Shown here: piece by piece, positions 22,373 to 23,587 of the stretch
Position numbering within the stretch: position 1 is the first letter of the stretch
How the letters are laid out: each line of letters begins with the position of its first letter
From: Paenibacillus harenae DSM 16969
GTDB lineage: Bacteria > Bacillota > Bacilli > Paenibacillales > Paenibacillaceae
Assembly: GCF_000422465.1 (NCBI RefSeq)
Contig: NZ_AULV01000015.1
Coordinates: 1 to 64,000, forward strand
Reading direction: 5' to 3'
DNA: 64,000 bases
Position numbers and translations under genes: made by a program
Notes under the pieces: generated by a model
What the model saw: the letters and a program-made list of their open reading frames with translations, nothing else
Told to the model about the DNA's origin: nothing
Database searches by the model: none

Positions 22373-22410
22373 GAGGCCGCCCCTAAGCCAACGACTTTTG
22401 GGACAGCCCC
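22373..22410 (-). terminator. Terminator behind the fusB-type gene
   Basis: In the minus-strand RNA GGGGCUGUCCC (22410-22400) pairs over 11 positions, with G-U wobbles, with GGGGCGGCCUC (22383-22373), and an inner AAGUC/GGCUU stem can extend it. A pyrimidine-rich tail and TTTT follow. It separates the fusidic acid gene from the kinase gene. Confidence 0.65.
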
Positions 22411-22423
22411 TTTTTTTGAAGGT

Positions 22424-23101
22424 TTAAACAGGATACGAATAGCCCGTCAATCCGATAACCGATTCGATAAATTTTTCTAAAGCGGACGTGTCAGTCAGGT
22501 TCTTGTTGCATTCATGGCTATTCATGCACAAGTAATTGCCAACCGCTTTGTAGTAATCAGGCGAAGCGTTAGCCGGCCTTTTTTTGGATACCGCCGAGAA
22601 CAAGGCAAGCTCTTCATACCTGTTGCACAAAAAGCAAAAGCTCTTCTTGTTTGTGGGCGTGAATCTTCCTTCCAAACCAATGAATTGTCCGTTTAACGGA
22701 TAAACGATAAACAATTTATTCGTAGCTGCGTCGTTCCAACCGAGATAAGTGACATAACGATGGTCGATCATCGTTAAATCAGGAATTTTCAGCTTCTTGT
22801 TCTTCGGGAACAACTTCTGAATCTGATTTTTTGTAATTTGCGGAAATTCCGCCATATACGGCTCTAGCGTTCTCATATACTTTTGGAAATCTTCCGCTGT
22901 TTTTAACGCAGAAACCTCTTCCAGCATTTGTTTCCGGGCGTCTTCAGCATTCGGGAACAGTCCGACAATTTTTGCTTCCGTGCCGGATCTGACCGATTCC
23001 AGAACTTTCGGATCGGCAATCGTTCTGAGAGCCTGCTCGAGGATACCCGCCTGCTTCTTGATAAAATTATATTGGTGGTTTCTAATAAATGGTTCACACA
23101 T
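22424..23101 (-). CDS. fusB: FusB/FusC-type EF-G-binding fusidic acid resistance protein
   Basis: A 225-residue protein with the two-part FusB architecture. An N-terminal four-helix bundle (residues 1-80) precedes a C-terminal domain that ends in an unusual treble-clef zinc site: CFLCNRYEE (Cys156, Cys159) and YLCMNSHECNKNLTD (Cys192, His196/Cys198). FusB proteins bind elongation factor G and help free it from the stalled, fusidic-acid-bound ribosome. Chromosomal relatives occur in soil Firmicutes. Start ATG at 23101; its ribosome site AAGGAG (23112-23117) lies inside a hairpin. A promoter, a short leader ORF and alternating inverted repeats stand upstream (separate entries), so expression is probably inducible. 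Confidence 0.88.
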   Translation of the reverse strand: MCEPFIRNHQYNFIKKQAGILEQALRTIADPKVLESVRSGTEAKIVGLFPNAEDARKQMLEEVSALKTAEDFQKYMRTLEPYMAEFPQITKNQIQKLFPKNKKLKIPDLTMIDHRYVTYLGWNDAATNKLFIVYPLNGQFIGLEGRFTPTNKKSFCFLCNRYEELALFSAVSKKRPANASPDYYKAVGNYLCMNSHECNKNLTDTSALEKFIESVIGLTGYSYPV

Positions 23102-23110
23102 ATCGGTTCA

Positions 23111-23240
23111 GCTCCTTATTTGTATTCATACTGAAATAAGGCGCAAAGCCAAATATTAGAAACGATGTTGTGGGCGATATTACTGTTGATTCATCCGCCC
23201 ATGCAAAGTATCGCCCCTAAAATAGGCTTTGCATGAGACT
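23111..23240 (-). promoter_or_regulatory. fusB leader: mutually exclusive hairpins and hidden ribosome site
   Basis: In the minus-strand RNA, in order: CAUGCAAAGCC (23235-23225), GGGGCGAUA (23217-23209), CUUUGCAUG (23208-23200), UAUCGCCC (23179-23172), GGCUUUGC (23150-23143), CCUUAUUU (23141-23134) and AAAUAAGG (23121-23114). The first pairs perfectly with the third or, through GCAAAGCC, with the fifth. The second pairs perfectly with the fourth, across the third. The last two form an 8-base stem that covers the AAGG of the fusB ribosome site. The first three elements lie inside the leader ORF, so a ribosome stalled there would change the folding downstream. This is the layout of a translational attenuator. 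Confidence 0.7.
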
Positions 23241-23271
23241 TGCCAATCCGGCAATCCGGAATTGCCATCAT
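23191..23271 (-). CDS. 26-codon leader peptide upstream of fusB
   Basis: A short ORF (MMAIPDCRIGKSHAKP then ILGAILCMGG) starts at tandem ATGs behind AAAGGAGTTGGTA and stops 89 bases before the fusB start. A good promoter lies just upstream. The ORF overlaps the first inverted-repeat elements of the leader. I infer a regulatory leader whose translation, or stalling of EF-G during it, controls the downstream hairpins. I know no homologous peptide. Confidence 0.65.
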   Translation of the reverse strand: MMAIPDCRIGKSHAKPILGAILCMGG

Positions 23272-23301
23272 TACCAACTCCTTTGATGCATGGATAGGTA
23301 T

Positions 23302-23331
23302 AGTATATAAAATAACGCTGGTTCTTTTCAA
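23302..23331 (-). promoter_or_regulatory. Promoter of the fusB leader transcript
   Basis: On the minus strand TTGAAA (23326-23331), 18 bases, TATACT (23302-23307). Expected transcription start near 23295, about 24 bases before the leader ORF and almost 195 before fusB. It begins right at the stop codon of the preceding gene, so fusB is a separate unit. Confidence 0.7.
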
Positions 23332-23335
23332 TGGT

Positions 23336-23587
23336 TTAGCGGATTTTGGAAGCCGAGCCGGCTAATGCAAGCGAAGCGCTGATCGTTAATTTTTTTGTCC
23401 GGCTGCGCAATTCCTCCCGCGTTAGCTCTGACAGCTTGCCGCTCCGGCTTAATTCAATTAATGCCGCTTTAGCCGCCTCTTCCGCGCGTGTCCCGTCCTG
23501 CAAAATAAAATAGGCAACCTGATAGGCATAAGGCTCTAGCCTTCTCAAGATTTGAACGACCGGACTGGAGTGAATCGCCGCTTTCAT
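23336..23587 (-). CDS. Small sigma-70-region-2-like protein
   Basis: An 83-residue protein. Its middle (LRRLEPYAYQVAYFILQDGTRAEEAAKAALIELSR, residues about 14-48) resembles region 2 of sigma-70 factors, where AYQVAYYILQDEELAEDA is typical, but the promoter-recognising parts and region 4 are absent. Similar truncated sigma-like proteins occur in Paenibacillus without known function. I chose ATG at 23587, seven bases from GGAG; a GTG directly precedes it. It is the last gene of the GntR-ABC operon, 17 bases after the anchored protein, so a role tied to that operon is likely but unproven. Confidence 0.65.
   Translation of the reverse strand: MKAAIHSSPVVQILRRLEPYAYQVAYFILQDGTRAEEAAKAALIELSRSGKLSELTREELRSRTKKLTISASLALAGSASKIR

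Follow-up and report, generated by a model that had tools for sequence, protein, structure and literature searches.

A conserved leader RNA in front of fusB-type and other genes of the Bacilli, probably a peptide-independent translation attenuator

The leader of the fusB-type gene in the window (the whole stretch of 64,000 nucleotides of Paenibacillus harenae DSM 16969 DNA that was analysed) was taken in the initial annotation for a single elaborate environmental case. It turned out instead to belong to an RNA family which occurs across the class Bacilli and precedes several unrelated target genes. As judged from the sequences, this conserved element very likely regulates its targets through a short ORF and two mutually exclusive folds, and it probably represents a new, reused family of translation attenuators working independently of the leader peptide, with a stalled ribosome as the switch and with one strand, B, shared by two alternative partners, D and G. 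Conservation extends to the ORF, to the two exclusive pairings, to the stem that covers the ribosome site and to a pairing with fusB codons 4-8; the stems also covary. The proposed leader-controlled switch is thus well supported, because a divergent set of leaders shows conservation of ORF and stems as well as covariation; lack of covariation and of a conserved ORF had been named beforehand as the outcome speaking against it, and the opposite was found. The leader is a concrete conserved regulatory candidate that occurs across a large bacterial class and matches no Rfam family.

The whole regulatory array, consisting of promoter, upstream ORF and alternative stems, is located on the minus strand (23331-23078) 5' of the fusB-type gene (22424..23101, minus strand), which encodes an EF-G-binding protein of 225 amino acids. 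Its original assignment holds, as the product scores above the cut-off for both PF07299 (N-terminal; 78.6 bits, cut-off 27.1) and PF16571 (zinc finger; 37.4 bits, cut-off 27.2), while none of the named resistance types FusB, FusC, FusD and FusF (NCBIfam) was found over its curated cut-off (best FusD, 104.6 bits, cut-off 450). The fusB-type protein likely frees ribosomes jammed by fusidic acid, and under the mechanism proposed below fusidic acid is also a likely inducer. In the order of transcription, the leader comprises the promoter, a ribosome site, an ORF of 26 codons and elements named A to J, all on the minus strand. The promoter pair described initially, TTGAAA (-35, 23331-23326) and TATACT (-10, 23307-23302) with a spacing of 18 nt (23302..23331), is present, and a TATAAT-like -10 box is kept in the alignment of relatives, but the promoter call by itself does not exceed chance (two found versus 1.9 expected in shuffles). 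The 203-nt leader folds better than all of 200 shuffled sequences (z -3.27).

The ribosome site of the upstream ORF, AAAGGAG, lies at 23278..23284, followed by the ORF itself, MMAIPDCRIGKSHAKPILGAILCMGG (ATGATGGCA...GGCGGATGA; 26 codons plus stop, 23191..23271), which was located where it had been proposed, running from 23271 to 23191. Hairpin A (GGCAAT/ATTGCC, 23250..23266) is placed inside codons 2-8 of this ORF; among 86 compared leaders, 70 form all six pairs at the best placement versus 2% of shuffles, and the compensatory forms GGTAAT/ATTACC, GCTAAT/ATTAGC and GGCAAA/TTTGCC are found. Further downstream, B (CTCATGCAAAG, 23227..23237) pairs with D (CTTTGCATGGG, 23198..23208), and C (GGGCGAT, 23210..23216) pairs with E (ATCGCCC, 23172..23178). 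The strand B' (GCAAAGCC, 23225..23232) overlaps B and has G (GGCTTTGC, 23143..23150) as its alternative partner, a helix lengthened by C' (TTTTAGGGG, 23214..23222) through pairing with F (GTTTCTAATA, 23154..23163). F can also pair with J (CCATTTATTAGAAAC, 23078..23092), which corresponds to fusB codons 4-8 and is marked by the codon lock described below, and G with the region 3' of the fusB ribosome site. H (CCTTATT, 23135..23141) is the anti-ribosome-site strand, and I (AATAAGGAGCTGA, 23108..23120), delimited in the alignment of leaders, comprises the fusB ribosome site and a conserved tail. All the repeats and stems listed initially could be located on the minus strand, that is the crossing perfect repeats and their third alternative (CATGCAAAG/CTTTGCATG, GGGCGATA/TATCGCCC and GCAAAGCC/GGCTTTGC) and the stem AAATAAGG/CCTTATTT covering the fusB ribosome site. 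Beyond that list we noted hairpin A, the C'-F extension of GCAAAGCC/GGCTTTGC, the pseudoknot order of the crossing repeats and the pairing of the leader with fusB codons 4-8 (23092-23078), which is outside the originally described interval 23102..23335. In their order along the RNA, B-D and C-E form an H-type pseudoknot; B'-G and C-E are nested.

In the alignment of 86 leaders, 98.7% of the cells are paired for B-D, 99.3% for B'-G, 89.5% for C-E, 92.7% for F-J and 93.4% for GH-I, versus 38-51% for whole structures in a control with partners slid. Cells changed on both sides numbered 26, with 12.8 expected and none of 500 shuffles as high, and in F-J (nine of its ten pairs counted, as one helix) four of the nine pairs were changed on both sides. 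The pair types of B-D, C-E, F-J and GH-I in these 86 fusB leaders did not go beyond shuffles (168 of 500), and neither did B'-G, C-E and H-I by two measures (294 and 411 of 500) or by the covariation score (53 of 500); the covariation term of RNAalifold was small (-0.46 kcal/mol). Change counts exceed shuffles only in part in this set because its sequences are so alike, and a divergent set was needed for the same reason. We therefore compared, in 47 representatives of at most 78% identity (47 of 48; one without a clear G was dropped), the duplex energy of each strand with its own partner and with permuted partners, using 20,000 permutations, a control that preserves composition and not relatedness. 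Own partners were better for B-D (-16.48 versus -14.03), C-E (-10.53 versus -8.72), B'C'-FG (-22.17 versus -16.89), C'-F alone (-5.89 versus -4.20 kcal/mol) and H-I (-7.71 versus -6.17 kcal/mol), and for each of these five stems no permutation out of 20,000 matched the observed energy (p<=5e-5). Pairing counts and permutation thus also define the strands D, E and G. Ranks of own over swapped partners in 46 leaders were 0.71 for B-D, 0.59 for C-E, 0.89 for B'C'-FG and 0.71 for H-I with wide windows, and 0.71, 0.70, 0.85 and 0.71, respectively, in the 47 representatives with windows set around D. Pairs have been re-invented with different sequence: the C-E pair GGGCGAT/ATCGCCC is replaced by AGCGTT/AACGCT, CAGCGGTT/AACCGCTG or TGGCAATG/CATTGCCA, and CTCATGC/GCATGGG by CTCCATGC/GCATGGAG, CTCTATGC/GCATAGAG or CTCCGTGC/GCACGGAG. 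Since B-D and B'C'-FG both covary, B is held by two mutually exclusive partners. Duplicates (L048, L049, L094, L098, L099) and decayed or chance matches (L216, L233, L234, L151, L169) were left out of these counts, as was L074, in which the search found no B or ORF although it scores 68.9 bits with the covariance model R2 (see below).

In each of the 86 aligned leaders, including that of the window, the upstream ORF passes the GCAAAG of B and terminates 5' of G; the stop is located before D in 57, in D in one and between D and G in 28. GCAAAG is read in all three frames (62, 17 and 7 of the 86 leaders; 73, 70 and 14 of 157 in a wider set; the counts are anchored on GCAAAG, and the starts of L029, L030 and L071 were placed by hand). 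Among 164 leaders of all target classes (L029, which contains an N, was left out), in which starts were chosen blind to the end of the ORF, 158 have a ribosome site and start, and 157 of these 158 ORFs go beyond B; the sole exception is L231, whose start was apparently picked wrongly, and six leaders gave no call. Of 48 representatives 45 were testable, and in all 45 the frame of the ORF is open through B, compared with 21 and 29 for the other two frames and 25.4 expected when the interval is shuffled. From this openness of the frame through B, together with the varying frames, we conclude that the reach of the ORF to B is under selection and that the encoded peptide, in all likelihood, is not; the peptide is not conserved because the frame of the ORF shifts among leaders.

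These results bear on the possibility that the B-D/C-E pseudoknot acts as an aptamer, binding a small molecule, CD3324, FusB or a ribosomal factor, with the ORF playing a minor part. B-D and C-E stand in H-type pseudoknot order and both covary, the sequence is better conserved than one would expect of a switch based on pairing alone (29 of the 297 alignment columns are invariant in the 86 leaders), the HTH-like CD3324 protein is often encoded directly 3' of the leader, and a structure paper names autocontrol of FusB synthesis as one possible role of nucleic acid binding by FusB. However, many of the conserved stretches are explained by the two alternative pairings, an aptamer needs no ORF that is open through B in every testable representative, and Rfam 15 contains no family reaching its gathering score in the window or in 20 divergent loci. 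We thus regard a ligand- or protein-binding leader as unlikely. Still less probable is a nascent-peptide attenuator of the ermC kind, in which a specific leader peptide and the drug together would stall the ribosome; a short ORF with a good ribosome site that overlaps the switching strand is what such a system would have, yet the same RNA is read in three frames and its stops are scattered, and those pieces of peptide that are shared follow from the conservation of the RNA itself. Peptide-specific attenuation was rejected on the grounds that the ORF frame through the same RNA varies among species.

At the other end of the leader, the fusB ribosome site is unpaired with a mean of 0.17 in the 86 leaders versus 0.39 when the upstream sequence is shuffled, and the value is lower in 77 of the 86. 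The pairing of the leader with J is reflected in a codon lock. Of the 86 genes, 75 encode F-I-R-N at this position; all 75 use ATT for Ile, 74 use AGA for Arg, 71 use AAC for Asn and 59 use TTT for Phe, whereas elsewhere in these genes the same codons account for 46%, 23%, 53% and 51%, respectively. Of 26 loci with a CD3324 gene situated between leader and fusB, 12 could be parsed; none of these 12 has AGA (six have another Arg codon and six another residue), while AAC is found in four and ATT in eight. CD3324 genes starting with M-K-Y (n=59), in turn, use AAA for Lys in 54 (57% elsewhere) and TAT for Tyr in 57 (77% elsewhere). Where CD3324 intervenes, the bias is thus seen in its first codons instead of those of fusB; as the lineages differ between the groups, the comparison is suggestive.

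If the leader is a translation attenuator that senses ribosome position, B-D would form first in the nascent RNA, leaving F and G free to clamp, together with H, the fusB ribosome site and first codons (OFF). A fast ribosome would run onto B', so that F-G would again be free (OFF). If held at about codons 7-9, a ribosome would occupy no more of B than its 5' half, and B'C' could then draw F-G off the clamp (ON). Neither an empty nor a freely translated leader would thus be ON, and a leader with a ribosome held midway would be. Because frame and stop vary, the signal would be the position of the ribosome rather than the peptide, and it likely arises from fusidic acid or from anything else that slows EF-G-driven translocation. 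The stall at about codons 7-9 is derived from the toeprint edge, about 16 nt beyond the first base of the P-site codon according to PMC9226507, and from the commonest distances between start and B (for fusB leaders 32 nt, seen in 54 of 100; for CD3324 leaders 37 nt, seen in 32 of 52); a preference for these codons is our assumption, since under fusidic acid ribosomes would be expected to halt at many different codons.

Folding calculations agree with parts of this scheme. D needs the 5' half of B and G does not. Minimum-energy folds contain B-D in 44 of 47 nascent RNAs, and the full-length leader contains B'-G in 28 and B-D in 17 of 47, a split which makes the proposed direction of the switch tentative. 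With the edge of the ribosome in the 5' half of B, the mean P(B'-G) of the 47 leaders rises from 0.62 to 0.85 and P(B-D) falls from 0.33 to 0.01; with the ribosome over B and B', P(B'-G) is 0. Of the 47 individual leaders, 19 gain more than 0.05 in P(B'-G) under the favoured stall and seven show a decrease, and the openness of the ribosome site changes from 0.19 to 0.27 over the 47 leaders. In the 86 leaders, open and closed states could not be told apart by forcing B-D or B'-G, the ribosome site being 0.16-0.22 unpaired in free, B-D-forced, B'-G-forced and B-masked folds. Sliding masks over 82 leaders (L050, L051, L054 and L055 were left out) moved the mean openness from 0.20 to at most 0.24 in 57 short-ORF leaders and from 0.15 to at most 0.22 in 25 long-ORF leaders, with an outlier of 0.34 in the 12 leaders having codon 17. 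In the leader of the window itself, openness goes up from 0.38 to 0.76 with a ribosome placed over B, but this pattern fails for the family. The nearest-neighbour model therefore keeps the ribosome site mostly closed in every state modelled, and as none of these states opens it much, we infer the ON state and its trigger. Either H-I would be opened by tertiary structure, kinetics or a further factor, or the direction of the model is wrong.

Control could also be exerted at the level of transcription, with the stalled ribosome preventing an intrinsic terminator as in the vmlR leader of Bacillus subtilis, for which a related anti-antiterminator logic is described. A scan of the window, however, revealed nothing resembling a terminator on the minus strand from 22380 to 23420, and the stem H-I, which covers the ribosome site, covaries; this alternative has little probability. 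A conserved untranslated region without a switch, or stems arising by chance, would fit the thermodynamics, which give no clearly open state, but is contradicted by the comparative tests (permutation, frame openness), the codon lock and the unrelated targets and is highly improbable.

The distribution of the leader was followed in 46 loci of named genomes, in genomes of the same genus (44 of 51 with a match) and of the same family (224 of 295 with a match, 30 loci supplied). The leader is located directly 5' of the gene in 41 of the 44 matching loci of the genus set (L074 being counted on its R2 score) and is absent from L089, L090 and L091; G002 has in addition a second, partial match. Among the 46 named loci it is directly upstream in 32; in Brevibacillus laterosporus (L022) and Peribacillus deserti (L033) it is found one gene further up, 5' of a CD3324-family gene, and in the remaining 12 no leader was detected in the 3-kb flanks. 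A covariance model of B to I (R1) has a single strong match in the own genome (125.7 bits; runner-up 17.3). Within the order it matched 232 of 296 genomes, many of which have two to four hits. A second model built from divergent members (R2) matched 97 of 398 genomes of the class Bacilli, in 28 of 146 genera, and eight of 299 genomes in a sample of the phylum, one of which (G1035) is outside the class. This lone non-Bacilli match in the phylum sample (L282) is situated 5' of a CD3324 gene and was perhaps transferred. A pattern scan of viral contigs found nothing.

The genes behind 196 leaders (164 plus 32) were assigned to classes with short motifs and tblastn, and in example cases with family scans. 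Directly downstream are 107 fusB-type genes, 79 genes of the CD3324 family, six beta-lactamase-fold hydrolases and one gene each for a SpoU methylase (nearest models RlmB and NshR/TsnR, both far under cut-off), a Mef-like MFS transporter and an APH/homoserine-kinase-like protein, with L254 unclassed; these proportions are not frequencies, because the leaders were picked by model score and from chosen genomes. Both CD3324 and fusB are present in 28 loci (26 places; L248 and L249 repeat L201 and L202), with the leader first by coordinates, and Pseudalkalibacillus has the CD3324-fusB pair annotated. The leader is found together with CD3324 on plasmids of Paenibacillus polymyxa and Paenibacillus sp. 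IHB B 3084. L207 (G658:C4) contains two identical copies of the leader about 640 bases apart (1768-1896 and 2533-2661), each 5' of a CD3324 gene (identical over the compared part), and a fusB-type gene further downstream; this is a tandem duplication of the leader-CD3324 unit. The own genome encodes two CD3324-family genes (L286, L287), neither locus having a convincing leader match. On a Priestia megaterium plasmid (L240, 249-2136), a fusB-type gene without the leader is located directly behind an annotated macrolide family glycosyltransferase. A beta-lactamase-fold serine hydrolase, as encoded at L164, L150, L256, L258, L259 and L261, is an odd target for a translation sensor, and our guess is that it acts on a ribosome-targeting antibiotic rather than on a beta-lactam.

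As the same RNA precedes methyltransferase, efflux-like, phosphotransferase-fold, hydrolase and CD3324 genes, it can serve as a guide to genes likely responsive to stalled translation, and ribosome sensing that is independent of the peptide becomes directly testable. Tentatively, the leader might be seen as a portable elongation-stress sensor of the Bacilli, which would read the progress of a ribosome in the short ORF irrespective of the peptide, with hairpin A as a load for EF-G and the fixed distance between start and B as a ruler; copies of this device would have come to precede six or more unrelated gene families, most of them of the antibiotic-resistance type, and its clamp re-fitted to the first codons of each gene.

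Our literature search, with subscription papers and preprints mostly outside its scope, found no description of this RNA, of its CD3324 target or of fusB-type leaders outside staphylococci, and a 2025 review calls the regulation of FusB homologues unknown. For the staphylococcal fusB leader of plasmid pUB101, the literature describes a translational attenuator in which ribosomes stalled by fusidic acid bring about an alternative mRNA structure. The two leaders thus have in common a short leader ORF 5' of a fusB gene and the reported stalling logic, and inspection of the pUB101 record by eye reveals a short ORF as well as complementary stretches close to the fusB ribosome site. In this record (L239, 735-880), the end of an ORF of 20 codons is complementary to a downstream strand which is, again by eye, also complementary to the region just 5' of the fusB ribosome site, a similar logic in unrelated sequence. 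R2 did not match the pUB101 leader up to an E value of 10, and with a protein identity of only 29%, the two systems are alike in their working at most. In vmlR of B. subtilis, stalling in a short ORF suppresses an anti-antiterminator, so that a ribosome-protection gene is turned on, and ORF variants from other species also work (PMC9226507); vmlR acts on an intrinsic terminator, whereas none was found for the leader in the window. Rfam 15 families likewise include structured 5' leaders, yet none reached its gathering score here.

Two features of a translation attenuator are found in the family studied here: a leader ORF with its own ribosome site, predicted from sequence with Shine-Dalgarno motif and start in 158 of 164 leaders, and exclusive stems together with a stem over the target ribosome site (B-D, B'C'-FG and H-I), which covary. 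With the translational attenuators of erm and cat genes it has in common the leader ORF, the mutually exclusive stems and the sequestered ribosome site. It differs from the erm/cat type in that the leader peptide is not conserved and the frame is free, and also in the order of its strands (B-C-D-E-F-G-H-I), in a pair of helices capable of forming a pseudoknot, and in a clamp that extends into the coding sequence of the regulated gene.
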